Shown here piece after piece: positions 7,749-30,200 of a DNA stretch of 64,000 nt. The position numbers and the translations under genes were made by a program. The stretch is from Branchiostoma floridae (taxonomy: Eukaryota; Chordata; Leptocardii; Amphioxiformes; Branchiostomatidae). How positions within the stretch are numbered: the stretch's first letter is position 1; every line of letters starts with the position of its first letter. A model generated the notes under the pieces. It had not been told where the DNA came from. It did no database searches and saw only the letters and a list, made by a program, of their open reading frames with translations. The DNA lies in NCBI RefSeq assembly GCF_000003815.2, contig NC_049984.1, forward strand, positions 12,938,003-13,002,002, given 5' to 3'.

Positions 7749-8701
7749 TTATAAGTTGTTATGGTTCAGTTTTCTGACTGATCCCTCGGTACCATTTAGC
7801 AGCACCATGTCGCCAGTCTGGAACATCGCTGTGGCATTCTTCACACTCACCACGCATGGGAGGCCGTACTCACGGGCAACCACTGCACCTGTACGTGCAG
7901 GGAGATGTGATGTCATAAGCTAAAGTATCGTCATTTTGTCAAGCCCGATAACCATCCTGACCGCTGACTCAATACGTTCGCTCGCTAAATTGAGCCAATG
8001 GTTACTACAGAGGATGGCACTCAGGCTACATTTTGTCTAGAAATCTAAATGATTTCTGCTATGGGTAGCACTATGGTATGATAGCGTAGACTTGTCCTTT
8101 GTGCTGAATGATTACTACTACAGCCCTCCAAGAGTCAGGTCAAAGCCAGAGTTCTCATTTTCCATCAGTGCTTTTAACTGAATGACATATTCTTTAATTT
8201 TGACGTATCAAAGTCAAATAGCACAGAATTTTTAAAGAACCTTCTCCAAAGACCCACCATGTGAAATCAGCCCTCCCAGCTCAGTGACCAGCCCACTCAG
8301 TAAGGGAAAGTAGGGACTCCACCCTATGTCTGTGCTCTGGACTATCAAAATCTCTCCAGCCTGTAAGAAAAGTTAGAAGAAAAATAGGCAGTCGCAATTT
8401 TATCTTAACAAAACGTTGACTACTGTGCAAAGCACATGTTCATTGTGATTGTTACATACATTACAAATGGTAATCTCCTGAGTAATAAGACACACTCACA
8501 TAAGCAAAGCTTTTTATATACTGCATGATTAAGTATTAACAGATGCTGAATGGTTAGCTGCTTGTAACCCTGTACCTGGATAGTCCCTGCATCCTCCAGT
8601 CTGGTCACCACCCTGGCAGGAGCTGTCACAGTCCCGTGGCTCACCGGCATTCCCTTCAGCATCAGGTCTGACCCGCTCACATTCAACACACCAACCTCAA
8701 T
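7749..8701 (-). CDS. Copy 2 exons 37-39: swivelling phospho-histidine domain
   Basis: Exons 8576-8701, 8258-8360 and 7749-7888. Encodes VSHGTVTAPARVV, then TDIGWSPYFPLLSGLVTELG, and the catalytic motif GGLISHGAVVAREYGLP split between exons 38 and 39 after the SH codons. The protein ends RKLNHNNL. The SHG histidine is the carrier of the phosphoryl group in PEP synthase, pyruvate phosphate dikinase and rifampicin phosphotransferase. The stop codon is 61 bases from the right end of MITE copy A. Confidence 0.9.
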
Positions 8702-11700
8702 CTGGGATACCAGAAAAATGGTAAGTTTACCACTATCAAGAAAAATCACAATATTCTCCCAGACTATTTGTCAGGTGTTTTGCCCAACACTGGAGGTGTA
8801 TGTAACATGAATTTCTTGGTACTAATAGGTTGAAATTCATTTAGACCATCATAGAAACCAACTAGACAAACCATCGATCATTAAACATATCTGTTCCTTT
8901 ATTTCCATTATAACGCTAAGTGAAAGCGAGGCGAGGAGAAGTTGAATTCATATGACGATGGTTTTGTTTTGTGTCTACAATTTGCATCTCTTCAACATTT
9001 CTTGTTGTGCAATAAAGGTTTTCATTCAATATCAATTAAAGCTGTTTCTGCATCGTTAATACCCAAATGAACCAGCCGTGCATACAGCCTTGACTTACAG
9101 GTTTGAGATGGCCACGGCAAATCTCCGGGAACTTGAGGGACATCTGCTTAGGTAGAATACGGCGTCTTCGCAATGCTCTGTGAGAGGACAAGCAGAAGAT
9201 GTTTTTTACGTACATTTGAGGTTCACGGTGGATGAAATATTGTAGAAGTTAGAAAAAATGCTTATGTCAACAATTTCATTAGTCTTCCTCAGACTTTCTG
9301 ACGCGTAACGTAAGCATAACTTAGATCTAAAAGAACATCATCTTAGGCTTGCAGATTTCTTAGATAAACATGTTACGTGCTTACCTGATACTGATTCAAA
9401 ATGCTATTGATAAGGATTGGTAAGGATTCTAACTCCAATGTATGTATATATCACTCACCTGGCCACTAGAACAGCAGACCAGCTGTGCAGAAGCGTGCCA
9501 ATCTCCTGGTGTGTCAGGAAGAACAGCAAATCCTCCTCAGGAAGGCGACCCTGTAAGTAAAGAAAGGTGTGTCATTTCAGTAGTGGCAAATGCAGAAGAT
9601 TAATTTGAATAGTTGGAATTCATATTACATTTAACAAATAGATAATGGTCTAGATAAATATTTTTCACAGCTATAAGTGACAGTATTATATTGCTGATGT
9701 CTGTAAATACAAAGAAATTTGTATCACTGATGTAACCTTGACCAATTTTTTACTTTAAAGTTATGTTTCATCTGTGTCGTATTTGGTTAAGGTTTTTGGT
9801 TAGATGGTTTACTTGTTTGGATGGTTCACATGTTTACGCCTCGTTAACTTATAAAAAGAGGAAGAAGATTGACGTGACATTTCAGAGAAGGCGGACATTA
9901 ATCGAACACAAATATAGAATATTTTCTTCAATTGCAATTTCCAGTGTCTATTTATTGAAGCCTATAGATCCCACCTCTGCAACCATAAGTGACGCCAGGC
10001 TCCAGTAGGCCTGTTTGAAATGGTCATTCATTTTTATTGCTGCTGACTTGCTCTGCTCCCTTTCAGCCACACCTTGCCGTGCGTAGGGGAGAGTCCACTT
10101 CAAGATGTACCTTATGGATGGTGAGGAATACAAGGCATTTAAGTTTTCAGCACCAAGGACAGTGTAACAGTTCTTACCAATGCGGTATGGTAATTGGCAT
10201 GTCTTGTTCAGTACCAAGTACATTATAACACTATTGAAAATCACTAACCTGCCAGCCATAGTTACGGGCGACTTGATCTTTTTCACAGCTTCATCAAAGT
10301 TGAACGGCTCCTTCACACTGGCTATCTGGTTATTCTTGAGCATTGTCTGAAATGAGGAACTACATTTCTGACACCACTATTCTAACTTTATGCATTCATG
10401 ACAAAACATGGTTTTTGGTATAAAATATCAACTCGTGTCGCTGGCAAGATTTCAGTCGCTTGTTTTCCGGGCGCACTTAGCGCCTGTTTTGGCCTGTTTC
10501 TCACAGGCAGTTTAATAGCGTGCTTTGGACTGTTTTTTTTTACATGACGCACATACCAGTTTAATTAGCCAATTTCTGTACATGTTCTACTTCATGTAAC
10601 GTTACTAGCCGGCTAGCCTCGTGTTGATACTATCGTTTGTTGTGTGCCACGATAAATGGTTTCACTTCCCGCCAAACTCAGCTGTGTATGTGATTGTATG
10701 ACTTTGAACTAACTCAACATAAGCTGTCCGGGTTTGAAAGCAAAAGCATTATAATCTCCATTCAAAAGGCTTGCACCAAAAAAGGATCACGCTACACAGG
10801 AAATCAAAATAACGACTTTGTAAGGCTGATATTTCTTGTACGAGGACTGTTATCCGTTAGACATTTTATTTGTCTCACAATGTTTGTCACATACCTGAAT
10901 GGTTAAAACCATCTTGGATGGTGCTGCTCTCCAAGATGTTTCCCTCAGTTCTGCCTATCAAACAAATGGTAAATCGTAATGTGTGAGCTGAATTTCAACA
11001 TGTTTAATATATTGACATTTCATCTATTCCAAATCTACGCAAAAGACACTGATAAATGGCTTATTGAAACACCTACACTGATCATGACATTACTGAAAAA
11101 ACATCACAAAAAGACTTTAAAATATACATATACAGTAACAAGAGAATATGTTGTATAATCATTTAACTGAACCGTAAGCACAGTATTCATTTTGTTTACA
11201 CATTGCATCAAAATTTGGAGTATGTTGTCCACTTCAGGACAGTTTGTGTATCCTTATGTTGTTGTAAGGATTCCATCTGACCTCCCTGAGACACCTGTGT
11301 CCATGCAGGTCCAGGAATGTTTGGAAGAGCTGTCCGGAGCAGCCGCTGTCAGCACCCAGCAGCCAGGCTGTAGCTTCCTGGAAGACGACCTCATTCAATG
11401 TTATTTATCCTAAATGTCAAAATTAATCTTGATCCAGTGAAAATAGACGTCCATCTGAAATGTAGTAAAGAGATACAATATGGTAACGTTACTGGTTTGC
11501 AGTTGTTTGTACACCAATTGGAAGGGTCATCAGCACAACTACAATTCAGGCAGCACAGTTTCATCTCGTGTTAACTAGTATACTACACATTAATGATAAC
11601 GTTAGTATTATTAGAATCCTAACTTGTACATTCAGCAGCTTACGTCGTACTCTGACTGACCTGAGATGACATGGCGATCAGTCTATCCTTGTGCCCTTCC

Positions 11701-13145
11701 TCTATGAGCTTCACTGCTAGTTTCTGGGGAAAGGAATGGATATAATACATCCAATGTTTTCGTAAGAAAAGTAAGCCATAGAATGACATTTTCAAAATGC
11801 AGAAAACCACCATGACAAATACCTGATTCGTCCAATGCCTGAGTCCAACTTGACATACATAACACTGGTTTGACTCAGATTATGTAAAATCAATGAATTG
11901 CGTATGTTTTTTTCGTTTCTTGGGTACTGTTTTAACACGTATTTCCCCTATATTAGTTTTAAACAAAATGCCTTGTATGCCATGTAACAAATGACGCAAT
12001 TTAGGAGACATTGATTTAATCATATAAAGTTATCTGCTATGTTGTTGGAAACGAAATATGAATGTGAATGTAGTTGCGCTGATCAAAATTAAAGCACTAG
12101 TATTTTGTAAGAATACAATGTACCTCTAATGCATCAGGCACATCTGCACTGGTCACGTGTTCACAGTTGACATACAGATGAGCCATGTCAGAGAAGTGCT
12201 GCATGGTCCACTCTACAGGTACAGGATACAGAATTGGGTGATCGGTCTTCTTGTTAATATAAAACCACGACTTCGAACATATTTTAGACATGTATATGAT
12301 CTGAGAGAGGGTCCAGTTATGTTATATGCCACTGTGTTTGCCAAGTTTCGAACATTTTACCAAATAGAATAGTCAAGTTTACTTCTTCAAATATCCTTTG
12401 AACTAAAATACAAATGAGATACCTTATGAGAAAAAGAAACGACTTATAGAATTAACTTAACCTTTTGGTTAGCGAAATCGGCATCGTTCACACACATGTA
12501 TGAATTTGTGTTATTGAGGCAACCGCAGAGTCCTCCAGGCCAATTGCTAGAAGGCAATGCCATTAGTAATCAAATATCTTATGAACTAAAACATACATTA
12601 CATATGGTATTGAGGCAAATACAGAGTGCTACAGGTTATAAACTTCAAATAAGGTCATTAATATATTTCTACCGCTGCTTCCTTGTGACAGGACCATCAT
12701 CAGGACAGTGCTCCATGCTGCTGATCGGCCACTACAGCTACAGTGATATGCCCAGGCCTGTAGACACATGGACGACAATGCTTTAGTTCTGCCTAATGAG
12801 CAAACAAAATTGGAAAAATCATTCGTGCTGACGTAATTGTGTCAGCTGTTTATTTTAAAATCAACTCCAAAATCCGCTCAAAATACATTATCTTGACGTG
12901 ATCTGTGCCAAAAAAATGATAATGGGGTCCTTTGAGTAAGTGTATAATGCACACGAAATTCAGTTTCTTGTTTCTTTGGTTTTAAAACCAGGGCACATGA
13001 GTCCAATATATACGTTTTTGGTCTGACAGTGGCCACTAAAATCATCTTAAAGGACCATATAAAGAATATCCCGGGTATTGCTACACCTTTGTGCCAAAGT
13101 TCAGGTCATTAACAGTATTAATTGTTTTACAACCACACACACACA

Positions 13146-13202
<57 letters not shown>

Positions 13203-16200
13203 ACACACACACACACATATAGATATAGATATATAGATATTATATAATCTGTAAAACGATTGATACTGTCTTACTACGGAACCAGTTTTATTCATGCTAC
13301 TTATCTAATCATTCTCACCATCATCAACCCATGTCTTCTGATGTTACTTTTAGTTACATATTTGAATTTCTTTGCATCATCGTATGCAAGGAGCTCGTGC
13401 AGGAACAACATGATAAATTTTTGTTGCCGACACTTTTTTATTCTGAAAAGTCGAATAAAGAACTAGAGTTCGGCGACCTCATACCTCCATGAATATTTAA
13501 AGCTTTTGTTAATTTCATGCAAATGACTTAACATTAACATGATTTATGCATGGTGTTGTTCATCATTGAATAACTTACAGTACACATGTCACAAGTAAAA
13601 TTCCCAATTCAGATCATCAATCATTAAGTTATTTGCAATTTTTGCATAAATTATGCAAATAAGTTCCTCATTTGCATATTTGATATCTGCATATGTTCCA
13701 CCGATTATAATTAACAAGTGTTACATTTATCGAAGTCCAGTTATTGCAAATAATTGAATTATACAATTTCCTCATTGATTATGCAAATTAATTCCTCATT
13801 TGCATAAAATGCATATCATTATGAACATCTTTGCCCAAGCTACCTGCATACCTAAAATGCAGGCAATCCGTCGTTCCTTTCTGCAGTTATCCTCTTTGGA
13901 GTGTCTTGACAAAAACACCCCTGCAGTTCCACAATTAAATGTTAGGGAACTGAAACTTGCCCCACTTTGTCATGACATTAAAAGCTATCTACCACCCAAA
14001 TGTCACGACCATATCACATTTGAGACGAGAGATACATTGAAAAAACTGCTATGATAGAATATTCTCATTAATTATGCAAATGTACTCCTATTTTGCATAA
14101 TTAGTATTTTATCTTGTACAACATTGTCTAAGGCACCTACATACCACAAATCATGAAAATCCGTTGTTCCCTTCTTGAGTTATCGTCTTCAGAAGTTTTT
14201 GACAAGAATGCTATCCCAAAACTAGACGCTAGGTGGCCCAAACTTATGTCATTTCTTTCTGAGCACAAGAGCTATCTAATACTCAAAAATCGTGACCATA
14301 GCATGTTCAGAACACCAAGATAGCAAAACCGGAAAAGTTGCGCTGCAGTACCAAGGGGAGCTGCTAGGGGGCCCAAAATCAATCATTTCTAGCTTTCATC
14401 ACACCCTACCAACACACCAAGTATCAAACCAATCCACCCAGCCGTTCTTGAGTTATCTTGTTTACACACAGACACACAGACACACAGACAGACAAACGCG
14501 GGGTAAAATATAACCTCCGTGACATTTCATGGAGGTAAATATATATGACTTACATGGTTCATTATGTAGGAGGCCATTCGTACTTAATTACTGGGCACAT
14601 CAAAATAGCCTTCTGCAAAATACACTGTCATTACCTGGTAGAAGTCTGGTAACCTCTCGTTGATCTCTTGGTACATCGCCATGGCGTTGTCATGACGACA
14701 GATGCTGTACGTAGTCAGAGTTTTCTCCAACTGGAGGATGTTGTGTTTTGATGTGTATAGATGCTGTGAGACATGAAAACAGTCAAAGAAAGTCATCAAC
14801 ACACTGAGGGCCACATTTCAGTTGTTAGCTGTCTGTAAGCTATGCCTCTGATGTTTGCTAAATCAAAGAATGTCAATATTCATAGTTCGCATTTGCCCAC
14901 AACAAAGACAAATGATACTTTGATACTAAGTTCTGTATATATATTGATTAGCTAGACCAATAATTCCTATACTGCAGAAAACAGAAAAATCTTATTGTCT
15001 TCATATCTCCAATGTTATACTGTAAATGTAATTATGTTCGCGGGGATTTAATTTCGCGGTAGCGGGAAAAGGGACTTAAAAATGGCAGTGGTCTTAAGTT
15101 CGCGGTGGCACCATGCACTGTAGTCTCCTACTGCCATGGAAAATGTTCGCGGTGGTTTTAAATTCCCGGTGAAGCGGCCACCGCGAAAACCGCGAACATT
15201 AAACTACCGCGAACCTTTCTGCATTCACAGTATTTCATCTTTCTCACCTTTGTAAAATTGTAGGAATTAACGATACGTTTCCATACAGATGATTTGCCAT
15301 GGTATTCAACGATGTCGTCCATTGTGATCTCTTCTAGGCACTGTATGCAAGCAACAGAACGAAACATTTACAAATTGAAGTCTTTGGTTGTGTTTATTTT
15401 AAACCAACAATCCCCTGAGACCAAGGGACATCTCTATATTCTTAGACAAAGAATTGTATCAATGATTTGTGCATAATAATATTAACAAAATATCAACACC
15501 AGAATCATTTGTCATGGAGCGAGATACTCACCCTTCCCACAATTGACATCTCAGATATTCTCTTGTCTCCAATTGCCATATGCGGCTCATACAACTCACC
15601 AAAATTCTGGGGGCAGGACCGTACAAAAACATACATCACAACAGATACATACTAAACGTTAACGTATGCTTCATGTCACATGCCATATTTATCAAAATCA
15701 GATAAAAAAACAAGGAAGCCAAAAAATGGTTCCAATCTTCGTTCTTCCTTCGTTGACACACAATGCAAAGAAGTTAGAGAAAACTCTGATTGAGCTCACA
15801 TGCATGTTGACGAACAAATTGCCCAAATAAAGTCCCATCTTCTTGGAGTAAGGTTGATAGCTTCTCCTCCTTATGAAGTTCGAGTTGTACTAATTAAAAA
15901 AAAATGATCACATTCAAGTCACGCCAATTTAATTCCTTGGTCCTCGGATTTAAAAAAAGATAATGGTAGACGGCATTGCAAGGCTAAGACAATCTATGCT
16001 ATTGTGCAGTATATCAATACATTTTTTTTTATTATTTAAAGTGCAGGTTACATTTATGTTCTCAAATCATTCACGAAAAGCATTAACATCGAAGATACAA
16101 GCATTAGCAGACAAAAATAAATTGGCATCAATATACTGCCATGATCTGCATTTCCCATTTTTTCAAACAATCAGAAAAATGTGTATTTACAAATAAAATA

Positions 16201-19200
16201 TTTGGAGTGTCTTTGACCCACTTTTTCTTAAAAAGGCAAATGCAGCTATTGTAGTGCAGTTTCCTACAGTATTGATGTGTCGATATCCTTTTAGAAGTCT
16301 TTTCTACAATGTAGGATTAACATGATCAAGTAGGTTATATTTAACTCTCGTCATATGATTATTCCATTTCACGTTGTGCCTTTAATCAATAGAAATTGAC
16401 TTTGTTGAATTCATTTACGGGTAGGAAAGTAAAGCTTTATTTTCTTACGTGATTTATAGATGCATGTAGCTATGAACTGGGGAAATATTTACTGCAATAA
16501 AAAATGCACCCACACTATATGATACATGTGAAGATGGTTAGGCCATTTTGAAATACTGGATGATTAATGGTATACATGTAAATCATTAAGGGAAAATTTT
16601 GAATGGGCGATGTGCAATTCTGGGAAAAAATCCGTGTTTCCTCATTCGCGATAACAAAAAAAGCGTTAACGTTTGTTAAGTACATTCAATAGAATCGCTC
16701 AATTTTGCAACTGTCCTCACAACGACGACAAGTAGCACGAATGAGCTCTGAAGGTATGCTGGAAAGATCCCAGGTATTTTTCTTATATAACATTGCATTG
16801 TATCAGATAATAAGCTACATGTCCTTTACAGTGTCCACCTACCTGAAGTCCATATTCTAATGCCTGACAAACGGTTGATGCTGTCAGGGGGGTCACAGCT
16901 CCCGGCAATATCTCTCTGAGGGAACAGCACAGCAAAGGGCAAGTTAATATTTTCTTATTTATCATGCAAATTAGGCCACCTTTTGCATAATTGATATGTC
17001 ATTCATCTCTTTCTCATTTGCATATGTGACAAGTTTGAGAGTCCTTTCATGGAATGCAGTGGGTTAATAAACTTTCCTCAATCAGATTTGCATAATTAGT
17101 ATCTCACAATTAAGGGTTAATGACCCGCCCCGATGTGTATATGGTGTGATAACGCCTGGTCCTTTGCTATAACCTCCGAATGAAACCACCAAGTGAGCGA
17201 AGTACGATCAGTCAACACGTTCTTATTTTCACTCAAAATAACCTTCTTGGCGAAGGTAATGAAAAATTGTAACCACACGTTATATGTGAAGAGGTCTACT
17301 ACAGTAAAGCAGTATATCATCATATCAGGACACTAGCCCTAATGTAAGTGTATTCATGCTGAGAAGTATTTTTGTGCTATTGCAGTTACTCACCCAACAT
17401 TACTGGTGGTGCTAATTTCTTTCTCCGACACAAGCGGTGTATCGAACTCGTGCATCAGTTCCCACTCAGTCTCCATGCCAAATGTGGTGATTGGTCGAGC
17501 CTAAAGATAAAAAGAATTAATGGAAGTTTTGTGAGACGGCAAGGCATGAAACCAATAGAGTAAGCCTACATTTTTATGATACTCAAGTTTTTTTAGTGCC
17601 ATTGTCTGCTACATCTGGTATTATGCTGTTCTATAAATTCATTATCACTGCTTACTAAATTCAGAATAATAACGTTAGATATGTAACGTTCAACGTAGTA
17701 CAAAATTTGGAGTGTCATGTTGTTGATTGTATTACGGACCTGTGCGTATAGCGCAAACATCCAGAGCTTCATATAAGGGTCAGATCACTGAGACTGGTGT
17801 ATTGTCTAACTACTGATACAAACTCTGTGTTGTACTGACTCCGGTAGATCAGCCATTCATAATATATTTATACAGCACCTGTAATAGATACACTGTGCCC
17901 TGGCTCACTGCCCATTCTACATCTTGTGGCCCACCATAGGCGTTCTCCACCTGAAAAACACAATCGGAAACATTTCCTGTAGCAAAATACGTAATGATAT
18001 CGTATATCACCAAGATTGTATGTTGTCAGATCAGCAAATTACCCACTCCAGAATCGGGCATTGTTTTTCGACAGAGAATAAACTATTATGCTTAAAACCA
18101 GTTTGTTTTGCCCTTTCACGACAAACGTCCTTTTCCAGTATTAGACAATGCTGGCTGCTCGGCTGAAGATCTGCCCAAGGCCATGGAGGATAGGGAAGGA
18201 TGGAGGGAAAGAGTCATGTCCACCCGCGCAACCAGCACGCCCGGATGGTGATGATGAGACAACCTTAGTCAATGTTGAAAATCGCGAACCAGCGCCCCCT
18301 AAAATAAACGCCAAAAGTTAGAAATGTATTCTTGTTGAAAAGACAGCTGAGGTAATCTAGTCCAAAAATGGGCGCATTTATATCCCGAAAAATACTACTT
18401 ATTTACTCGCCTCTGTAGTGGAATGCCCTTTAATGACAATGTGCAAAGACCACACTTACATTTTTGTATCATGTATAAGGTCGTCTAAACAGCCATATTA
18501 CTGGATGCCAACATATTTATTGTGTAATTAAACAAACTGTAATTCGTCATATTCTTATGTTGTGTTAGTCAGAGACAATTCTGGTAGCAGAACCCTTCCA
18601 TACCTGAACACCGATGTGTCCCAGCTTGACAGCTATGTCATTACTTAGACAGCACGCCTCAGACTGAGCTGAAGTAACCGCTTGCACTGCTGTGCCCCCT
18701 TTGTCTATAAAAGATTCAACAGTTAGGTTTCACTCAAAAATATATTTACCATTGAGTTCCAAATGGGTATTTCTGTGTCAATATACAAAAAAAATCGTTT
18801 GCCTGGTAATGTTCATTGACACGGGCATTTTTCCATAACATACAAAGATTTCCTCTCATCAAGGAGAAGGGTGAGTCTACAAACAGATTTATGCCTATGG
18901 ACATGGAGGAGATTTACCTAGAGGAACCACCTGTTGAGTCTTGCTTCCCAGATCCACACCTTTCACCTGACATGAACCATCCACACCACGGGACAGGGTG
19001 ATGGTGTCTGGATGGGACTCACCACTGACCACAGACTGATTGAAACAAGTCGCAATCACAGTGTTACATACCTAATAATCCTACTTGGTATTTACTGCTT
19101 GGAGGTTAATGCTCAAACATTACCCATTTCATCAGTGAAAACTAGATCACTCTGGAACTTATATTGAGAAACGTTTTTGCATAAAACTATTAGTAAGACA

Positions 19201-22200
19201 AACTATAGTACACGACCATGTCCAGGAATATACGGAGATTTTTGGAACTGGGTAAACCGTGGCCAAAAATCCCTGTATATGTCCCGGACATGCTTAATAG
19301 GTGCGCCAGGACACAGAAATTCGGAGAAAGTATTGTTTTCGTGCAATGTACTAAAAGCAGCAGGCCAAGAGCCTGGGCATGGTTTGAGAACATTTTTCTT
19401 ATCCATGTACGTATGCACAACTCACCTCACCCAGCCCGTAGTTGGCATTGATAACCATCTTGCCTGGATGTCCAGTTACTGGATGCTGAGTGAAAAGGAC
19501 ACCTGGGAAAACAGAAAATATTACAGTAATGAATAGTTACCATTATTTCTTCCTAACAGAAAAATATCTCCTAGTCAATAGTGGTTGCACCGGTTAAATA
19601 GAAACAAATACAAATACCGATAATAAATTACAACATTTTACAGTTCACTATTCACCTGCCACTTCTGCTGGCACCATCTCCTGTACCACCACAGCCATGG
19701 AGGACACAACAGGCTGACCATGCTGTCTGTGAGAAGACGCACATGTATGTGTAACAAGCCACATAAGCTTTACCAAATGTATAGTTTGTGAATATGTAAG
19801 AGCAGATACAATGCATTTCAAGATAATGAAGAACATAAAGAACATGGATATACGAATGATATATAGAGACCAGACTAGCATAAGCATTAGGGCATATTAT
19901 TGCAAAAGTGATTTGGGACAAAATGAGATCAACATTCCGCCTTTATCACCTTCTGTACTGGACAGCCGGAAAACCATAGAGTGAGGCCCAACACTTCTGA
20001 ACTGCGTCACAGATCTGAAATGAAGGGACTCAATAAAATCTCATCTCAAGAAAGCATAATGTGCAATAAAGGTCTTCATTAATTCAAGTTGAGAAATCCA
20101 CGTGATGTATTCTGTTTTTTATATAAGATGACGGAAACTTCACCTGATCCAGCCCTCGGACACCCAGCCCTGTTGCCATCTGTCCTGCGGCAGACATCTC
20201 CTCGGTATCTTCACCTGAATAAGGAACATTTCTTTGTAACTTGCTTTATAAATGTTGAAAGAAAATTATGTGCCCCTACAAGTTGATCAGAAAACAATAA
20301 CCCATGATGTATTTCATGAAAAGTTCGTTTTCCACCTACATAGTCAGATGACTAAAGAACAGCGCATACCGATAGCAGATGAACGAACAGCGAATTGACT
20401 GCCACTTAGGTTGTCCAGTTCATCTTTGATGGCTTCTCGCACTTCCGACACCAGGGCAACAGAAGTAAATATTTCCCCCACACTGACAAATTTGGAAAAA
20501 ATCACAAAGAAAATTTACAAATTGGAGCAAAAGAGCATGGATTGTCATGGCAATCCGTCCACTACTTCTTGAGTTATTCTCTTTCGAAGTCATACAAAAT
20601 CGGCCCTAAGGCCTGTAGTTAGAAAAAGCCGCTGGGGGACCCACCACGCCATGGCTCAACCGAATACATAGCTTTTTGGAGAGGTCAATACAATAAGCTA
20701 ACCGATCAAAATATTCCTTCTTTGACATAAACGAATTGCGCACTTGCCTTTGACACATTCCCTGCAGTGCTTCCACTTGGCCGCTACTGTAGGGAAAAAG
20801 AAGTAGGATAACAACCCTTGCATTTTGTTAACCCTGATAATAGTACTAGAACTACAACTTTATTGCGCGACAATTGTAGCAGGTACAATGTATGGCAATC
20901 TGAATATACATGGGAGTTGAACTAGTATGATATAGCAATGGAAACAAGGAAGTAGAATACATTGGTTGAGGCCGTCAAAAATGGAATTATGAAGTATGAG
21001 TTCAGGGTTACTACTTATACAAAACGTGTGGAAATTGGTATGGTACATACCATGAGACTTGCTTGAGTTCTTCCAGCTTTGATTTCAAAGATGGGTAAAG
21101 CTATGAAAAATGATAACAGATTAGATATTTTTCATCTCAGACATTCCAACATTAACATTTACATATTCATATCACATACACAGACATACAATGTGATTGG
21201 ACAAACGGTTTCGGATAACATCATAACATGTTCAATATTTCAAGGCACTGACCTTCAGCTGCAGCTCCATGGCTGCCATGGTAACGCAGAACCCAGATGG
21301 AACCTTAAACTGAAATAGAGGAGAGGTCATCATCAATCATCATCATGCACACAAGTGCACATATGTAAGGTGAAATGTTCTACAACTGGTATACTAGAGG
21401 AGATGGTAACGAGAGGGGAATGTGGGGATATATCACCATTGAACCATTTTTCTGCAGAGCAGTCAGTGTGGCCAGACTGCTCCCCTTCCCTCCGACCAGG
21501 TCAGTACTGCGACAGACTGGGCTGGACAGGGACAGGGTCAGCAGTTTCCGGTGTGTACTGGTGATATCTGGCAGCGGCTGCTGTGGTCTGGACTCACGGG
21601 GAGGCAGTGGGCAGCCAGTAGTGTTCCTTCATGGACATGATGGACATTTGAACTTTAAATAGCAAAGCTGTACCATTCAGTAAACATTGTACAATAAATG
21701 TGGATTGCTATTTTCTAAAAGTTACCAAACAAAGCTAATTAGATATTTATCACTCTTGGCTTATATACCACAGGTGAAGAAAAACGCTCACTTGTAATTG
21801 AACTCACAGACTCCCCAACCTTTCAGGCCATTAACCGTGAAGTTAGCAAGCCGTTCGTGCACACGAGATTCCCATTGAAGCCCATTGTACCAGGTAGACT
21901 GGCAATATATTTCCACCTGAACATGGTACTTCTTGCCCCCTGAAAGGTAGACAAGAAAACAATCAATTGAAATTTCCATGCTGCAGCTGCCTTTGACATG
22001 TTAGACAGTTATGAAAATGAATGTCAACAATATGATTAAACATTGTCACTTGTCATGTAACAATGTCCATCAAACGTCACGTGACAGAGAAACTCCAAGA
22101 TGAGATCTCAGGGTTGACAAAGAGACAGAGTTCGTCTCGAAAGCTCCCCAGGCTAATTGAACTTTAGTTGTGTGTATGCTGTTTAAATCTTTGTCAAAAG

Positions 22201-25200
22201 TATGATTAAACATCGTGTTTCTTTTCAATTTCTTTTGACAATGCAATATGCATTTTCAGAGGGAGAGGGGTGTCTGAAACTGTTTTCCTGTATGGTCTGA
22301 CTATATGAAGCAGATTCTACAAAGCTTTTGAAAAGTTTCAACCAAACTAAAGAAAGTTTAATCCCATGTGAAGAACGCATGGTCTTTTTAGCGAATGCCC
22401 ACAAACGCCCACTCTAGAGAAGTCCGCGCTGCACGAATCTCATTTTTTTTGCTTGGAATATGTCCACGTTGTGCTCCCATGTATTAATCCTGAGTTTCAA
22501 GTCAATCCATTGACCCGAAGTGATATAAATCAAAGTTTTCAATTCTCGATGGTCTTTTTAGCGAACGCCCAGCAAAATGTCTTTTTAGCGAATGCCCACT
22601 ATATCCACAAAAATATCGGCCGTCGCCCAACGACACCTAAACCTACCGCCACAAACATGTTCAAGATGGTGTCCCATTGATGTGTACGGAGTTTCCGTGC
22701 TTTACAAGCATTTTAAGTCCCTGTTTTTGGTCAAAATGTACGGCGACGATACTACCATACTTTAACTATAGCAATTCAAAATGGCGGGCACTAGTCATGT
22801 GACCTCCTTGCGGGACTGTTCTATAAGTATCGCGGGAGGGACTGTTGTAGCATAGCTTCTCATACAACCATTTTAGAGTGAATTCTGAACAAGATTTTCA
22901 TTTCATAGTGCTATCATCTGACTGATATTTACAATGTGGACATTTTTTCTGTGCTATTATTACCCAGGTTTGAGGAACTTAGTGCAAATATTTATTATTA
23001 ACAATACTATTTGCATTATAATAATAACTCTTCACCAAACTGGACTTTTCTTATCTTTATTTATCACAGAAACATTGTTACAATGAGGATTTGATTAGAT
23101 GAGTATCTGTTACAGTGTGTACAAACTTATTTCAAATACAAAAATGTATTTCGTTTCACTTCCTAAATATTTTTAAAGTATTGGAAGAAGTTGACACATA
23201 AACAATATTAATTGCATTATTTATGTGCAGTAAAATGTGACCACATGCTATCAATAGCCTAATAAAATGTTGGAACATGGCACAAGCGGGCTCCCCTTCT
23301 GAGTACAGAAAGAAAATGTTTTATTACATTTAGTTATGACGTAGAAAATTTCAATTGTAAAATGTACCTTTATTAACATTTACAAACAAATTGTTTTTTT
23401 CTCTTCTTAATAAATGACAACAATACAGGTAAGTAAGGTGTGTTTCCTTTTATAACAGGCCAGGTAAGACACCGTACAGGTCAGTAAGGTGTGTTTCCTT
23501 TTATAGCAGACCAGGTAAGACACCGTACAGGTGAGTAAGGTGTGTTTCCTTGACTACAGACTAGGTAAGACACCTTACAGGTGAGCAACGTGTATTTCCT
23601 TTGATTACAGACCAGGTAAGACACCGTACAGGTGAGTAATGTGTAGTTCCTTTGATTACAGACCAGGTAAGACACCGTGCAGGTGAGTAAGGTGTGTTTC
23701 CTTGACTACAGACTAGGTAAGACACCGTACAGGTGAGTAACGTGTATTTCCTTTGATTACAGACCAGGTAAGACACGGTACAGGTGAGTAAGGTGTGTCT
23801 CCTTGACTACAGACTAGGTAAGACAGCATACAGGTAAGTAAGGTACGTTTCCTTTTATAACAGACCAGGTAAGACACCGTACAGGTGAGTAACGTGTATT
23901 TCCTTTGATTACAGACCAGGTAAGACACCGCACAGATGAGTAAGGCGTCTTTCCTTTGCCTATAGACCAGATAGGGCATTATACAGGTAAGTAAGTTGCT
24001 TTACTCACCTGTTTAATACCTATCTGGTCTATAGGCAAAGGACAGACGCTTTACTCACCTGTATAATGGCCTATCTGGTATATAGGCAAGGGAAAGACAC
24101 CTTACTTACCTGTACAATGCCCCATCTGGTATATAGGCGAAGGAAAGACACCTAACTTACCTGTATAATACCCTATCTGGTCTACAGGCAAAGGAAAGTT
24201 GCTTTACTCACCTGCATAATACCCTATCTGGTCTATAGGCAAAGGAAAGATGCCTTACTCACCTGTATAATGGCCTATATGGTATATAGGCAAAGGAAAG
24301 ACGCCTTACTCACCTGTGTAATACCCTATCTGGTCTATAGACAAAGGAAACACACCTTACTCACCTGTGCGGTGTCTTACCTGGTCCGTAATGAAAGGAA
24401 ATACACGTTACTCACCTGTACGGTGTCTTACATGGTCTGTGAACAAAGGAAATACACGTTACTCACCTGTATGGTGTCTTACCTGGTCTATAATCAAAGG
24501 GAATACACGTTACAAAACCTGTGCGGTGTCTTACCTGGTCTGTTATAAAAGGAAACACACCTTACTCACCTGTACGGTGTCTTACCTGGTCTGTAATGAA
24601 AGGAAATACACGTTACTCACCTGCACGGTGTCTTACCTAGTCTGTAGTCAAGGAAACACACCTTACTCACCTGTACGGTGTCTTACCTGGTCTGTAATCA
24701 AAGGAAATACACGTTACTCACCTGTACGGTGTTTTACCTAGTCTGTAGTCAAGGAAACACACCTTACTCACCTGTACGGTGTCTTACCTGGTCTGTAATC
24801 AAAGGAACTACACATTACTCACCTGTACGGTGTCTTACCTGGTCTGTAATGAAAGGAAATACACGTTGCTCACCTGTAAGGTGTCTTACCTAGTCTGTAG
24901 TCAAGGAAACACACCTTACTCACCTGTACGGTGTCTTACCTGGTCTGTAATCAAAGGAACTACACATTACTCACCTGTACGGTGTCTTACCTGGTCTGTA
25001 ATCAAAGGAACTACACCTTACTCACCTGTACGGTGTCTTACCTGGTCTGTAATCAAAGGAAATACACGTTACTCACCTGTACGGTGTTTTACCTAGTCTG
25101 TAGTCAAGGAAACACACCTTACTCACCTGTACGGTGTCTTACCTGGTCTGTAATCAAAGGAACTACACATTACTCACCTGTACGGTGTCTTACCTGGTCT

Positions 25201-28200
25201 GTAATGAAATGAAATACACGTTGCTCACCTGTAAGGTGTCTTACCTAGTCTGTAGTCAAGGAAACACACCTTACTCACCTGTACGGTGTCTTACCTGGTC
25301 TGCTATAAAAGGAAACACACCTTACTTACCTGTATTGTTGTCATTTATTAAGAAGAGAAAAAACAATTTGTTTGTAAATGTTAATAAAGGTACATTTTAC
25401 AATTGAAATTTTCTACGTCATAGCTAAATGTTATAAAACATTTCCTTTCTGTACTCAGAAGAGGAGCCCGCTTGTGCCATGTTCCAACATTTTATTAGGC
25501 TATTGATAGCATGTGGTCACATTTTACTGCACATAAATAATGCAATTAATATTGTTTATGTGTCAACTTCTTCCAATACTTTAAAAATATTTAGGAAGTG
25601 AAACGAAATACATTTTTGTATTTGAAATAAGTTTGTACACACTGTAACAGATACTCATCTAATCAAATCCTCATTGTAACAATGTTTCTGTGATAAATAA
25701 AGATAAGAAAAGTCCAGTTTGGTGAAGAGTTATTATTATAATGTAAATAGTATTGTTAATAATAAATAGCTATGTTTTTCTAGTATTGGTTACCTGCCCC
25801 TATTCAGGTTTATAACACTAATGTGTCTGAGACTTTTGTACATTAATTGGGCACTGAGGTGAATCAATATCCATATTTGCACTAAGTTCCTCAAACCTGG
25901 GTAATAATAGCACAGAAAAAATGACCACATTGTAAATATCAGTCAGATGATAGCACTATGAAATGAAAATCTTGTTCAGAATTCACTCTAAAATGGTTGT
26001 ATGAGAAGCTATGCTACAACAGTCCCTCCCGCGATACTTATAGAACAGTCCCGCAAGGAGGTCACATGACTAGTGCCCGCCATTTTGAATTGCTATAGTT
26101 AAAGTATGGTAGTATCGTCGCCGTACATTTTGACCAAAAACAGGGACTTAAAATGCTTGTAAAGCACGGAAACTCCGTACACATCAATGGGACACCATCT
26201 TGAACATGTGTGTGGCGGTAGGTTTAGGTGTCGTTGCGCGATGGCCGATATTTTTGTGGATATACTGGGCATTCGCTAAAAAGACATTTTGCTGGGCGTT
26301 CGCTAAAAAGACCATCGAGAATCGAAAACTTTGATTTATGTCACTTCGGGTCAATGGATTGACTTGAAACTCAGGATTAATACATGGGAGCACAACGTGG
26401 ACATATTCCAAGCAAAAAAAATGAGATTCGTGCAGCGCGGACTTCTCTAGAGTGGGCGTTTGTGGGCATTCGCTAAAAAGACCCTCCCTGTGAAGAATTT
26501 GTATATTTTTCTATGATTATCAGTATTTAAGTGCCTTATAATCACCTGCCACAAAGCTGAAAGAGTAGTTGTCAGGCATGGTTCCATCTTCTCCAATACT
26601 TGACAATACCAAGTCCACTTCTGACACCGCCTCCATCGTCCCATTAGGGGTGAAGACATAGCCTGTCCGCAGACTTGAGGAAAGGGTTCAGCCATAAGTT
26701 ATTAGCCTCGTGTGTAACCAACATAAGCTGTTCTTGATATTACCAACTGACTACAGTTGCATGTTACCAGAGGTGTGTACCTTGCAAGATGAATTACAAG
26801 CGTAGGAATTGTAATTCTCTACGTATACTGGTGTAAGGGACAAGGGTTCATATCATAATGAACATTGCCAGGATCATATCTTTTCCAACAACTATTGAAC
26901 CAATCAAAATTCTGTAACTCTACTAATATTTCAGTGGCATATCTCTCACTTCTTTTAGAGCATGATCGCAGATTGATCAGCACAAAAAGCACACTTACTC
27001 TGACATGGTTGTTGGAAAACAGGATGTAGCTACTTGAAAGCAGGAACCACACTGTATAAAAAAACAGCAATTAAAGGTATTCTTACTATATTGAAACTTT
27101 AAGTATAATTAACAGTTGACTGAGAAAATCTATTTCATTGCTTTCATTGCATACAATCATTATGATATTCCATTAAAATGTCTTTGTTATGATCCTATAT
27201 TCGTGGGTTAAGCATCATGGTCATGGATACTTAAGTATGCACACAGCTGTTTTTACAAGTAAAATATGATAACGCAAGGATATGGTTAGCACCCTGACAA
27301 ATCTGGAAATGGTCAAATATTTCAGGTAGTATCTACTACCTTTAATGAAGGAACAAATTGACTGAACAATATTTAATTACCAAAAAAGTTATGGATACGT
27401 AATTCAGATGCCTGAAATAAAGAATAATAAGGATGAGGACAAATTTTAGATACTCCAATAGGAAATAAAAATAAGACGAAGTCATGACTAGGGTGATGCC
27501 ACACTGCTCCTGTTGTTTGAGTACATGAGCTAATGACAACATTTTGCCAATGTCACTCACCTCCAAGTAAGCAAGATGAACTATGCAGCGATGCATGAGG
27601 CTCGAGTCTCTCACACCTATGGAAACAGGTAGGACTGAGCAACTCCCACTTTGATGTTCTGTAGTAACTTAAATTATCAATGTTCAACTAAGATGCGTTA
27701 AATATTAAAGATATATGAAAAGAAGTAAAATCCTATTGTTTAAACCAAAATTAGTGATTTGTGTAAAATATGCCTTTCAGAAACCCGTTGCCATGGCAAC
27801 ACGAAAAATTCTAAACTTACTCTATTCTTTTTTAAATTGTTGCCAACAATATTCTAGGAAAAGTCATCAAGTTTGGTTCTTCTAGCACAAGCCGTTTGGG
27901 AGTTATACGACATCAAAGTTGGCTCAGCAACTTTTAGCAATGAAGTTCATTATCAGTTCATTCAAAGTTGTACAAATTAAAACTACAATAGGCTTTTGAA
28001 GCTTGGTTGTTTGATTCTGAACATTGCACCCATTTGATAAATTCAAATTCAAACTCGACTGTGCCCTACCAAATAAACGGTCCCTGCAACCCCTCAGCCT
28101 GACGTGCTGCTCCTCATGACCCTCTATGTGCAGACCTCCCCACAGCTGTCCCCACTGGTTGTAATGAGTCTGGTGTGAACTGAAGTTACAATTTGAAAAG

Positions 28201-30200
28201 AAATCTTACTAAACATGCAATTTAAAATACAGTGGAGAAAACTTCAATATCAATAATTTTCATCGCTGTTTACAACAATGTTACACAAACAATCACTGTC
28301 TACAATAATATTACACAAATAATACTATAATGTTCCATTGCTGAGGCCATTACTAAACGCAATAATAAAGTACACTGCCAGCATGAATTCTCTTCAGACG
28401 TAACTCCAAAACATTAAAGCGATTGAGTTTCTTTCCACCAGTTGACGACTGTTGTAAAATTTCTAACAAGTAAACAGACACATCCTTGACATTCAACACG
28501 TACGTTCGCAAGTCCTGGAAGAACTGCTTGTTCCACTTCTCGATGGCCATGGCACGGGCGATCGCACGAGGATGAATGTCAGTGTCAAAGTTGAAGGGTA
28601 AGGTGTAAGCAGACCACATGAAGGAGAACCTGACATGGACCAGACGACCCTCCTCCTTCGTTACATCAGTGCGTGGTGATTCCGTCAGCCTGCAGTGATG
28701 GAAAGTGTTGTTCGTATCTATACAAGGTGTACCAATTGCAAAAGATTCCATGCAAGTCCGTTTAATATGTGTGGTGATATGTGCTTAATGATAAATACCA
28801 CATAAATCTGATAATCATGTCAAAAGCAACCATTACCAGACTTGCCTGGCATTTATTACCACTGCAGTACTGGTAGATCTCAATTTTGATGCAGTGAAGT
28901 GTGTTTTGTTTACCTCATCAGTCCGTTGAACTGTACTTTCCATGTTCTCATGGCTTCCACTGGTTCAAAGTGCAGTCCTGCTGCGGAGAAGGTTTTCCCG
29001 TCCGTGTTAAAGACGGCTGTGTCCGGGTGCTGAGGGGCCTGCAGCACGCCGACTCCGGGCACGTGGAGGATGAACCAGATCTCCGCACGGCGGCCTTGGT
29101 GGCGACAGATTCGCGTTACGACAGCAGTTCCATCTGGTGCAAAACCATTGAAGCAGACGCTGTCTAAGGCCTGCAGAGATATACATGTAACACTGAATCA
29201 AGTAAGGCTATCCCTACCACCAACCTGTCAACACTTGGTCATGGGATCTCTTATTTCTTTGTAGACCCAATAAAATTGAGGTTCAAACGTCTTAACCCAA
29301 GGTATTGTCTATTTCCATATTCAAGAATAGTCAAGTTACTTGTATTGCAAGTATATAGTTTGAAATAGTATAGAATTTCAATCCGAACTTATGAGGTTTC
29401 AACATTTAACTCAGAGGGCAGCTTGTCAACTATTCTATTACACTCCTCTTCCTCTAAAACGTTTCTTTTCAAATACTTCTGGCATATTTAGGTATGTATA
29501 TAAAATATCCTGTCCTACATGTTCATGACCCTGTAACTTCTGAGGCTGGTCCATTTCTTCTGGAGTATGAGCCCCGTGATTTGGTAGTCCTGTTACCATC
29601 GGGGCACCTTTTTTCTGTTTCTGCCTTTTTCTCCACTGTTGTAGCTTCGCAAGCAGGTACATCATTGCAAACTTCAGTTCATACCTGTCGATTGAAAAAT
29701 AGTTCATTAACTCATTACTTTAATTTTATTACCAAGTGTATACACCATTTCTGGGGAAGGTACTTTTAGACTGAAGGTACAGAAGTTTACAAATCTTTAC
29801 CTCCTCCCTGTTAATATAGCCATTTGACAAGGAATCACCTTTGAGATGATGATGGAAACATTCAAATCGAAAGTGACAGACCTTGAATTGCTCTTTTGAA
29901 GTGATAATATCCCATGGGTTATACATTACACCCAGTCCGCGCGTTTTTAAGGTAAATGTATTCAATAAAAATGGACAACGAATGGAACTGCCACGTTACT
30001 TTAGATGGCAACTTTGTAGACCCATTTTTTATTAGCTGGTGCTTTTGTATAACAGAAACATCTCACCATCTTCCAGGCCGGTGATACACTCCTAGGTGAA
30101 CAGGAGGATCAGGTGTGAAGATAGACTTGATAACGTACAGCACCGCTGCTGTGGCAATGGCTTGCAACACAAGGACGCACGTGGTGGCTAATTCGTCCAT
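7749..30200 (-). CDS. Membrane-anchored PEP-utilising phosphotransferase (rifampicin-phosphotransferase/PEP-synthase-like), copy 2, complete
   Basis: Complete gene model: 39 exons, 3990 nt including stop, 1329 aa; every junction keeps frame, 37 of 38 introns are GT-AG and one is GC-AG. Start ATG at 30200 (MDELATT), stop TAA at 7749-7751. Order: N-terminal hydrophobic anchor (about residues 6-24); animal-specific N-terminal region to about 410; ATP-grasp module with GGKG (456-459), AVRSSAIGED (554-563), GGPQDVEWA (734-742) and LLQARPIT (750-757); linker with PGAVTPLT (792-799); swivel domain with SHG, His about 1283. In this family ATP gives a phosphate to the swivel histidine, which passes it to a substrate such as pyruvate or, in bacterial resistance enzymes, rifampicin. 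The animal substrate is unknown. Bacterial relatives have about 860 residues, so the first 400 or so are extra. Exons are listed in the four module entries. Confidence 0.9.
8985..9040 (+). repeat. LINE 3' tail fragment (AATAAAGGTTTTCATTC type)
   Basis: TTGTTGTGCAATAAAGG followed by TTTTCATTCAATATC. The same wording recurs at 20060-20090 and, in its fullest form, at 44150-44236, so it is a dispersed non-LTR 3' end rather than a poly(A) signal of a gene. It lies in the intron between exons 36 and 37 of copy 2. Confidence 0.45.
9099..16915 (-). CDS. Copy 2 exons 23-36: linker / substrate-side module
   Basis: Exons: 16843-16915, 15800-15889, 15532-15606, 15248-15340, 14635-14763, 12673-12757, 12124-12212, 11661-11723, 11282-11377, 10895-10954, 10249-10346, 9975-10110, 9459-9550, 9099-9177. 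Starts with GEILPGAVTPLTAS, the sequence that opens the middle domain of PEP-utilisers of the rifampicin-phosphotransferase type. The remainder is largely helical with HGHRCLREAELR, RYILKWTLPYARQG and EEDLLFFLTHQEIG. In the bacterial resistance enzyme this middle region binds the acceptor molecule, so it is where substrate choice should lie here (inference). Exons 29-36 have same-length counterparts in copy 1. Confidence 0.85.
13131..13218. repeat. (CA)n microsatellite
   Basis: About 85 bp of nearly pure CA dinucleotides with two TA interruptions, inside intron 27 of copy 2, followed by a short AGATAT repeat to 13241. Any reading frame through it is an artefact. Confidence 0.97.
13482..14537. 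mobile_element. MITE-like element with ACCTCCATGAA/TTTCATGGAGGT ends
   Basis: About 1.05 kb in intron 27 of copy 2, bounded by TACCTCCATGAA and its complement TTCATGGAGGTA. Inside are repeated ATGCAAAT / ATTTGCAT blocks, then a segment reading GCTGCAGTACCAAGGGGAGC, a phrase TTCTTGAGTTATC, and an ACACACAGACACAC run before the right end. Shorter relatives with the same ends or internal phrases occur at 38133-38415, 52322-52623 and 54248-54617; internal parts also recur near 30610-30730 and 59970-60180. No protein-coding capacity is seen. Confidence 0.65.
15018..15232. mobile_element. Inverted-repeat MITE with TTCGCGG repeats
   Basis: 215 bp from TACTGTAAATG to CATTCACAGTA, imperfectly palindromic, with six or more GTTCGCGG / CCGCGAAC blocks. 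Elements of this wording are common in lancelet and mollusc genomes (from memory). It lies in intron 26 of copy 2 and ends about 15 bases from the 5' splice site of exon 26. No clear target duplication beyond a possible TA. Confidence 0.7.
17394..21626 (-). CDS. Copy 2 exons 10-22: ATP-grasp (PPDK/PEP-synthase N) module
   Basis: Exons: 21437-21626, 21253-21309, 21051-21100, 20748-20786, 20370-20482, 20144-20214, 19950-20014, 19656-19726, 19426-19502, 18918-19035, 18604-18704, 17879-17950, 17394-17500. Visible family landmarks in order: LVGGKGSSLATL (nucleotide-binding loop), KVPSGFCVT, FAVRSSAIGEDTEEMSAAGQ, VVVQEMVPAEVAGVLFT, ANYGLGE, GGPQDVEWA and LLQARPITT. This is the domain that binds ATP and makes the first phosphotransfer. 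Exon 13 (39 bp) ends in AAAG/GCAAGT, a GC donor; only that border joins AG to the T of exon 14 in frame. Exon 19 must run to the CTAG/GTAAAT donor at 18918, not the earlier CAG/GTGG, to keep frame. Confidence 0.88.
19215..19292. repeat. Imperfect hairpin in intron 18 of copy 2
   Basis: CATGTCCAGGAATATAC..GGAGATTTTTGG pairs with CCAAAAATCCCTG..TATATGTCCCGGACATG across a loop of about 16 bases, giving a stem of nearly 30 bp with a few mismatches. It may be a tiny foldback element or a structured intronic RNA. No other copy was noticed in the window. Confidence 0.6.
20055..20092 (+). repeat. LINE 3' tail fragment
   Basis: AATGTGCAATAAAGGTCTTC followed by ATTAATTCAAG; same terminal wording as 44200-44236. 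It sits in intron 15 of copy 2. Confidence 0.45.
21792..30200 (-). CDS. Copy 2 exons 1-9: membrane anchor and N-terminal region
   Basis: Exons 5' to 3': 30067-30200, 29519-29684, 28914-29170, 28500-28689, 28070-28169, 27561-27616, 26999-27051, 26546-26673, 21792-21939. Exon 1 gives the start, a single hydrophobic helix and then HLGVYHRPGRW. Exon 2 is basic (WRKRQKQKKG) and ends GHEH at a weak donor (CAT/GTAGGA). Exons 3-9 form a mixed alpha/beta region with motifs such as QHPDTAVFNTDG and FTVNGLKGWG that I recognise only from animal members of this family; it has no named domain that I can assign. A likely acceptor (CTACTCTAG) lies about 25 bases upstream of the ATG, so there should be a 5' UTR exon. 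Intron 8 holds the foldback element. Confidence 0.85.
22367..26497. mobile_element. Foldback (FB/TU-like) transposon, 4.1 kb, with 9-bp target duplication
   Basis: The element 22376-26488 is flanked by the perfect 9-bp repeat TGTGAAGAA (22367-22375 and 26489-26497). The two halves are inverted copies: outer arms of about 1.05 kb (left) and 1.15 kb (right), then inward-facing tandem arrays that meet near 23995. The ends share GGTCTTTTTAGCGAATGCCC. The right arm has about 110 bp near 25770-25880 absent from the left, and its array is longer (about 26 units against 11). Long inverted arms with internal tandem repeats and 9-bp duplications are the hallmark of Drosophila FB elements, whose autonomous relatives are Mutator-like. 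No transposase is present, so mobilisation in trans is inferred. It makes up about 90 per cent of intron 8 of copy 2. Confidence 0.85.
23420..25345. repeat. Inverted arrays of 50-51-bp splice-site-like tandem units
   Basis: About 37 units, 11 reading forward on the plus strand to 23995 and 26 reading forward on the minus strand from 25345 back to 23996. Forward unit: TTTCCTTTGATTACAG, ACCAGGTAAGACACC, GTACAGGTGAGTAA. Two subtypes alternate (TTTGATTACAGACCAGG and TTGACTACAGACTAGG); units nearest the centre are more diverged (CTATAGACCAGATAGGG). Each unit has a pyrimidine tract plus ACAG acceptor-like site and two consensus-like donors. Apparent repeat proteins in this stretch follow from the 51-bp (17-codon) period and are not called as genes. 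Confidence 0.9.
27787..27800. promoter_or_regulatory. Perfect palindromic X-box-like site (RFX motif)
   Basis: GTTGCCATGGCAAC, a perfect 14-bp palindrome matching the RFX X-box consensus, in intron 5 of copy 2. Surrounding sequence looks like a dispersed repeat, so the site may have come with a repeat. Function is not shown. Confidence 0.4.

Follow-up and report, generated by a model that had tools for sequence, protein, structure and literature searches.

A gene of the amphioxus Branchiostoma floridae is almost certainly a bacterial-type gene pair fused into one reading frame, in which a domain of the DUF7065-DUF7064 family precedes a dikinase. From the homology of its parts we propose, at about even confidence, that it encodes a bifunctional, probably membrane-anchored and AMP-forming enzyme, an ATP-driven dehydratase that would act on a lipophilic alcohol by way of a phosphoester. 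Phosphorylation of a hydroxyl by the dikinase half is quite likely, and elimination of the phosphate by the N-terminal domain is a reading for which the chances stand roughly level. Each part is of a known kind, and their combination is a new variant.

The gene, here copy A, lies on the minus strand of the window, by which we mean the whole stretch of 64,000 nucleotides that was analysed. From 30200 down to 7749, its 39 exons join in phase to 1331 aa with one terminal stop, and 37 of the 38 introns are GT-AG, the single GC-AG intron following exon 13. A first-pass annotation of the same DNA had already described 39 exons without a frame break, although it gave the length as 1329 aa; the ATP-grasp and swivel-histidine motifs that it named are all present in the translation. 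The features of copy A are as follows.

7749..30200, minus strand: complete coding span of gene A, 39 exons, 1331 aa
Minus strand, exons 1-8 (high to low): 30200-30067, 29684-29519, 29170-28914, 28689-28504, 28179-28070, 27616-27561, 27051-26999, 26673-26546
Minus strand, exons 9-16: 21939-21792, 21626-21437, 21309-21253, 21100-21051, 20786-20748, 20482-20370, 20214-20144, 20014-19950
Minus strand, exons 17-24: 19726-19656, 19502-19426, 19035-18918, 18704-18604, 17950-17879, 17500-17394, 16915-16843, 15889-15800
Minus strand, exons 25-32: 15606-15532, 15340-15248, 14763-14635, 12757-12673, 12212-12124, 11723-11661, 11377-11282, 10954-10895
Minus strand, exons 33-39: 10346-10249, 10110-9975, 9550-9459, 9177-9099, 8701-8576, 8360-8258, 7888-7749
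30067..30200, minus strand: exon 1, start codon and single hydrophobic helix (residues 6-24, from hydropathy; also in copy B), putative membrane anchor
29519..29684, minus strand: exon 2, helix WYELKFAMMYLLAKLQQWRKRQK and linker
21792..29170, minus strand: exons 3-9, residues 101-412, DUF7065-DUF7064 domain, AttH/25-phosphosteroid-lyase-like
27561..28179, minus strand: exons 5-6, motif RDxSFG..RxW; Asp281 kept, family positions Ser283 and Trp289 lost in A and present in B
17394..21626, minus strand: exons 10-22, residues about 413-789, ATP-grasp domain (PPDK_N)
9099..16915, minus strand: exons 23-36, residues 790-1209, acceptor-binding middle domain
7749..8701, minus strand: exons 37-39, residues 1210-1331, swivel phospho-histidine domain, His1285 in GGLISHG

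Exons 27, 28 and 29 join in phase without two open stretches that lie between exons 27 and 29, near 13440-13320 and 12545-12480. These were rejected as exons, as by eye the phase is broken with the best acceptor, and copy B holds no match to either of them at E under 0.01. Rfam and tRNA scans of the window gave no matches.

The hydrophobic helix of residues 6-24 has a mean hydropathy of 2.1 in A (2.11) and 2.0 in B, in line with the single N-terminal helix described earlier, and it would serve as a putative membrane anchor. Such a helix is missing from all 20 bacterial members compared, in which the top 19-residue hydropathy within the first 70 residues is at most 1.24, versus 2.11 in A. As such, the animal-specific portion seems limited to this exon 1 helix and some of the linker. 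The nearest bacterial DUF proteins begin with a basic stretch that by eye resembles that of exon 2.

A complete paralogue, copy B, which the first-pass annotation had overlooked, runs on the plus strand from the left into the window, so that A and B are arranged tail-to-tail. Its start lies 13.5 kb to the left of the window (near 12924503 on the contig), and it encodes 1335 aa; its portion within the window, 1..4259, comprises the following exons.

Plus strand, paralogue B exons 29-34 (3' part): 317-405, 652-714, 1279-1374, 1626-1685, 1897-1994, 2407-2542
Plus strand, paralogue B exons 35-39: 2671-2762, 2988-3066, 3287-3412, 3668-3770, 4123-4259

All 39 exons of A are collinear in B, where they keep their phases and have usable splice sites (exon ends of B were set from homology to A and then checked), and their lengths are equal except for exon 2, 15 nt longer in B, and exon 39, 3 nt shorter. 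The introns of B are GT-AG in 37 cases and GC-AG in one, after exon 23. This independent, collinear copy confirms the exon chain of A. Furthermore, 38 introns, each matched one for one in B, rule out bacterial contamination, and the inverted order of the copies together with a dS of 0.27 rules out unmerged haplotypes. A search of the 513-Mb genome (431 contigs) with the B protein gave at least 39 matches, all inside A or B (35 of 78 candidates scored), and the swivel-domain family occurs in two places in the whole genome, one per copy (4 of 4 candidates scored). The PF01326 and PF23212 profiles found no match over the same genome, which we ascribe to the shortness of the exons.

The two copies are 88% identical (dN 0.063, dS 0.269), and 98% identical in the swivel domain. 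The identity is patchy: at the DNA level exons 8 (26673-26546) and 37 (8701-8576) are 100% identical and exons 2, 14 and 25 about 79%, and dS ranges from 0.05 in exons 8-9 to 0.38 in the middle domain. Gene conversion between the inverted arms is a candidate cause.

Does copy A still carry out the full reaction? A alone among 22 aligned sequences deviates at three positions, Tyr106, Ser283 and Trp289 in A numbering (exons at 29170-28914, 28179-28070 and 27616-27561), and two of these fall in the RDxSFG..RxW motif, where the stretch GYRDHSFGVRYW of B reads GCRDRLFGVRDS in A (RDHSFGVRYW in B versus RDRLFGVRDS in A). With its motif and three family positions changed in A, the better candidate for the full reaction is copy B. 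It is therefore a serious possibility, although somewhat short of an even one, that A is a decaying or re-purposed duplicate on its way to a pseudogene or a kinase-only role, and that only B is a working two-step enzyme. A fold-back element of 4.1 kb in intron 8 of A (22381-26483) would agree with decay; it is present in A only, as intron 8 of B is under 400 nt. However, the 39 exons of A are free of stops, frameshifts and broken splice sites, dN/dS over the whole is 0.23, and the catalytic-candidate Asp is retained. The outer arms of the fold-back element itself measure 611 nt and are 99% complementary, and its inner arms measure 411 nt. It also carries a 51-bp repeat in two arrays of opposite orientation; the repeat consensus contains splice-acceptor-like and donor-like sequences (TTGATTACAG/ACCAG/GTAAGAC), which in one of the arrays lie on the transcribed strand.

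The N-terminal region had been described as an addition of about 400 residues with no domain that could be named. About 317 of these residues turn out to correspond to a DUF7065-DUF7064 protein known in bacteria: residues 310-411 of A match the Pfam family DUF7064 at 37.2 bits (cut-off 24.7), and residues 101-417 can be aligned over their whole length with bacterial DUF7065-7064 proteins that stand alone. The DUF7065 profile itself finds no match in A, and in two bacterial members it stays below its cut-off of 27 (18.1 bits in L158, 25.6 in L225); the full-length alignment nonetheless holds. A tblastn search of plasmids with the N-terminal region of B matched three records, the best being a 335-residue hypothetical protein of Sulfitobacter (22.6% identity over 89% of the query, E 1e-10) that carries both DUF7065 and DUF7064 and with which the animal region aligns end to end. 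DUF7064 exceeds its Pfam cut-off in 28 of 296 genomes from the phylum of Prauserella, in none of 299 from that of Novosphingobium, in 76 of 377 from that of the genome G007, and in 3 of the 33 genomes identified by way of dikinase loci. When nearer relatives were sought in another phylum, 7 of 301 genomes matched with a best E of 9e-9; in a further phylum none of 294 did, in a scan that lacked a known positive as control.

What could such a domain do? Single-sequence searches of solved structures, with the N-terminus of B or with one bacterial member, matched none for this family. A profile of 22 family members (A3) instead finds the 25-phosphosteroid lyase, at E 1.6e-13 for 9fzn/9g2i and 4e-12 for 9g4c; its other matches, up to E = 10, are the AttH-type protein 2ich (0.013) and a peptidase propeptide (0.038). 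A smaller profile of 11 dikinase-linked members, A and B included, recovers the same lyase at 5.9e-8 and has no AttH match. The likeness to the lyase, the best solved relative, is found by profile only and consists of three short co-linear stretches, of which one contains RDxSWGxR; Q..G and G..E are also among the co-linear motifs. The Asp of RDxSWG and nine further positions are invariant in 22 of 22 aligned members, and this Asp reads Asn in 9g4c, which we infer to be an active-site mutant.

In Sterolibacterium, two separate enzymes, a kinase and a C-O lyase, dehydrate 25-hydroxysteroids at the expense of ATP (PMC8449060). The available part of that 2021 report gives the lyase gene as not yet known, and in that of a 2024 paper the lyase is still termed putative (PMC11061730). 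In contrast to the animal domain the lyase is free-standing, and its partner, the 25-hydroxysteroid kinase, is a small phosphotransferase and not a dikinase. A kinase or dikinase beside a relative of the 25-phosphosteroid lyase leads us to expect the same chemistry. To our knowledge, no dikinase-lyase pair has been assayed.

The domain could also bind or hydrate rather than eliminate, since the AttH relatives include proposed binding proteins and hydratases. In the first of these cases it would be a lipocalin-like escort that merely binds and presents a hydrophobic alcohol to the kinase, with a phosphate ester as the final product. AttH-type proteins (2ich, about 335 residues) match the profile weakly around RDxSWG, and one of them, NE1406, is described in the available part of its report as consisting of two lipocalin-like barrels, for which a ligand site is proposed and a role in lipid metabolism suggested (PMC2954199). 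Moreover, copy A keeps its kinase half, as the near-identity of its swivel domain to that of B illustrates, while its lyase motif has drifted. Nevertheless, the solved structure closest to the domain carries a lyase annotation, and its match is at 1.6e-13 as against 0.013 for AttH, whose match is lost with the smaller profile and which the available portion of its report does not show to be an enzyme (PMC2954199). The invariance of the motif Asp in all 22 members also goes beyond what mere binding demands. We therefore regard an escort role as possible but doubtful, and the lyase-like reading is the one pursued below.

The genomic surroundings of the bacterial relatives were inspected at 61 DUF7064 loci (14 plasmid, 27 + 20 genomic), over about 6 kb or more per side where contigs allowed; the loci are not independent, as L092/L094, L098/L100 and L102/L103 are near-copies or close kin. 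At nine of the 61 (L145, L148, L149, L150, L151, L153, L158, L224 and L225) a full dikinase gene lies beside the DUF gene on the same strand, and two further loci hold a partial one: at L163 it is on the opposite strand and cut by the contig end, and at L137, from the phylum of Prauserella, DUF7064 genes lie beside two dikinase-like ORFs with acceptor and swivel parts and no ATP-grasp, which are perhaps split enzymes. At the remaining 50 loci a dikinase near the DUF7064 gene is absent, which counts against the proposed reading. Two paired dikinase ORFs reach about 1500 aa: in that of L151 (680-5227) the acceptor-plus-swivel part occurs twice in one frame, and in that of L150 (7323-11972) the same duplication is probable, judging from blastp pieces.

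At 20 of the 61 DUF7064 loci, versus none of 80 control dikinase loci, an APH-type small-molecule kinase is encoded within about 6 kb, which favours the lyase reading. The controls were the best 80 of 470 confirmed, chosen irrespective of DUF7064; no DUF7064 gene was found near these 80 either. Several plasmid DUF loci carry genes for acyl-CoA ligase, acyl-CoA dehydrogenase, enoyl-CoA hydratase, SDR and thiolase as well. On plasmids L090, L091, L092, L095 and L097 the DUF7065-7064 genes belong to or neighbour beta-oxidation-like clusters that include an APH-type kinase, and are candidate kinase-lyase pairs for alcohol breakdown.

The relatives nearest to the animal gene come from the phylum of G007. 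A profile of the two animal N-termini and L158 ranked, over 359 genomes of that phylum, G007 first (2e-147, itself in the model), followed by G673 (9e-87) and G733 (2e-51), after which E drops to 4e-17. The three nearest DUF genes (L158, L224 and L225, in this order of E) each lie directly upstream of a dikinase gene, as in the animal order, and the likely ATG of the dikinase overlaps the end or stop codon of the DUF gene (ATGGCTGA in two of them). At 18 other DUF loci taken from this phylum, a dikinase was found within about 6 kb in none, where contigs allowed. The animal chain joins its halves at the same place and in the same order as these three pairs, whereas in the Actinomycetota DUF-dikinase pairs the gene order is the reverse. 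Four neighbour ORFs of L158 and L225, one encoding a DNA glycosylase and three without a family, gave no clue to a pathway.

Both halves lead to the same three pairs in trees. A 77-row dikinase tree took in those 65 of the 80 dikinase loci whose ORF measures 700-1250 aa; L150 and L151 entered it with their first 930-960 residues, and RPH (the rifampin phosphotransferase) was entered minus its middle part. In this tree the animal enzymes group with the dikinases of L158, L224 and L225 (SH-aLRT 99), and their neighbours are L010 (93) and the dikinases of the six Actinomycetota DUF pairs (93). The L010 dikinase, just outside the group, is 35.3% identical to B and has no DUF gene in the stretch examined. 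A 30-row tree selected from these 77 recovers the group of five at 100/99 and leaves its deeper link to the Actinomycetota pairs without resolution. The tree of the DUF half (67 rows, many with long branches) unites the animal domains with L158, L224 and L225 at a support of 90; the next neighbours, L227-L229 (93), are three loci without a dikinase, of which L227 is cut by the contig end. Linkage to a dikinase requires two changes on this tree versus a mean of 8.6 after shuffling, and 0 of 500 shuffles were as low. Identity to B is 34.6-35.5% for the three nearest dikinases and 29-31% for their DUF proteins.

The bacterial pairs, both these three and more distantly L145, L148-L151 and L153, are thus the nearest relatives of both halves and have the same catalytic residues, and the first three also share with the animal the GHRCxREAEL of the acceptor domain. 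They differ from it in being two genes, in lacking the hydrophobic helix, and in being, for the first three, about 29-36% identical. Since the nearest DUF relatives overlap dikinase genes that are themselves nearest in the trees, the animal gene almost certainly arose by fusion of such a pair plus the addition of a hydrophobic anchor.

The dikinase half was correctly recognized by the first-pass annotation as a complete ATP-grasp and swivel-histidine machinery. In this half of A, Pfam reports PPDK_N at 248 bits (cut-off 27) and PEP-utilizers at 72.8 bits (cut-off 23.1), and up to E = 10 nothing else, a pyruvate/PEP-binding domain included. The term 'PEP-utilising' is as such a family label only: although PEP synthase and pyruvate phosphate dikinase (PPDK) share the ATP-grasp and swivel-His domains, in the animal enzyme the His domain is C-terminal and not in the middle, and together with 299 of 740 bits for the PEP_synth model and the missing pyruvate domain match this excludes either identity. 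The C-terminal 900 residues instead show the order ATP-grasp, acceptor, swivel-His known from RPH, and the best solved relative of this half is that of Listeria (5hv2/5fbs), at E 6e-76. Lys460 and Arg558 of A align with RPH Lys22 and Arg117, Arg1124-Glu1125 with the acceptor-site pair Arg666-Glu667, and His1285 with His825, chain position 825 of 5fbs falling on the aligned His. These RPH residues are named in the available part of the structural report (PMC4844700), and counterparts of all five are present in A, B and 10 aligned bacterial relatives. Glu742, Gln754 and Arg756 of A, in the PQDxEW and LQxRP motifs, which we take to have a role in the ATP site, are kept as well.

The layout is thus RPH-like, yet in the dikinase trees the animal enzymes group with the three uncharacterised DUF-paired bacterial dikinases and not with RPH. 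The RPH group was named after the first tree had been inspected; forcing the animal enzymes together with its six rows in the 30-row tree is rejected by the AU test (log-likelihood lower by 161, p-AU 1.1e-43). Furthermore, the dikinase half falls below the cut-off of every one of the 25 NCBIfam models listed, reaching 355 of 999 bits for RPH, and RPH has no N-terminal DUF7065-7064 domain. Tree, AU test and model score together rule out RPH identity, and leave the animal enzyme as a dikinase that has the layout of RPH but belongs to no named family. Public annotation labels related invertebrate proteins after RPH, PigC or PEP synthase. A detoxifying phosphotransferase of xenobiotics, as the earlier annotation had suggested, could draw on the shared domain order and on RPH being the best solved relative. 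It is improbable, given the same tree and score evidence and a conserved partner domain, which argues for one substrate class; a lipophilic alcohol undergoing phosphorylation and subsequent dehydration would suit that domain better than a xenobiotic acceptor. More improbable still is a PigC/RedH-type ATP-dependent ligase, in which the dikinase would activate one substrate by phosphorylation and join it to another that the N-terminal domain holds: PigC and RedH score near the RPH model on the animal dikinase (316 and 312 bits), and among NCBIfam models RedH scores best on the paired dikinase of L145, but the scores on the animal dikinase are far under the cut-offs of 1300 and 1350.

So how would the proposed dehydratase work? 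Going by its motifs, the ATP-grasp domain would phosphorylate His1285 with release of AMP and Pi, after which the swivel domain would bring the phosphate to the middle domain, where the Arg-Glu pair may pass it to the hydroxyl of a lipophilic alcohol. The DUF7065-7064 domain, by its homology, would then eliminate the phosphate to leave an alkene, resulting in a net ATP-driven dehydration. The hydrophobic helix would keep the enzyme at the membrane where lipophilic substrates live, with the catalytic part probably on the cytosolic, ATP-containing side, as the positive residues after the helix suggest. By itself, the in-order fusion predicts that both halves act on one substrate. The phosphate transfer potential of a tertiary phosphoester is about that of ATP, according to the available text of the Sterolibacterium report (PMC8449060), and a dikinase, which spends two ATP bonds, may therefore suit such a product ester. 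Tentatively, and with doubt outweighing confidence, the acceptor could be narrowed to a hydroxylated membrane lipid (a hydroxysterol or other isoprenoid alcohol), from which a one-chain ATP-driven dehydratase would make an alkene without a redox step.

One other ATP-dependent dehydration is named in that same text, the single-enzyme repair of hydrated NAD(P)H (PMC8449060). In the open-access literature, which leaves subscription journals mostly outside, we found no paper on this animal gene or on DUF7064. Apart from the repair enzyme for hydrated NAD(P)H, we know of no ATP-driven alcohol dehydratase on one polypeptide. A bacterial-type PEP synthase is listed among the foreign transcripts of a bdelloid rotifer, in the portion of that study at hand (PMC3499245).

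The present proposal supplies a testable function both for an animal gene that was an orphan and for a domain family that has no name, with an acceptor suggested by the lyase-like partner. As an evolutionary case it is a clean one, with overlapping bacterial genes on the one side and their in-order fusion in an animal on the other. If true, the amphioxus would possess an animal ATP-driven route to dehydrate lipophilic alcohols, a chemistry that, as far as the accessible text goes, is described for the degradation of sterols in one anaerobic bacterium, where kinase and lyase are separate (PMC8449060).
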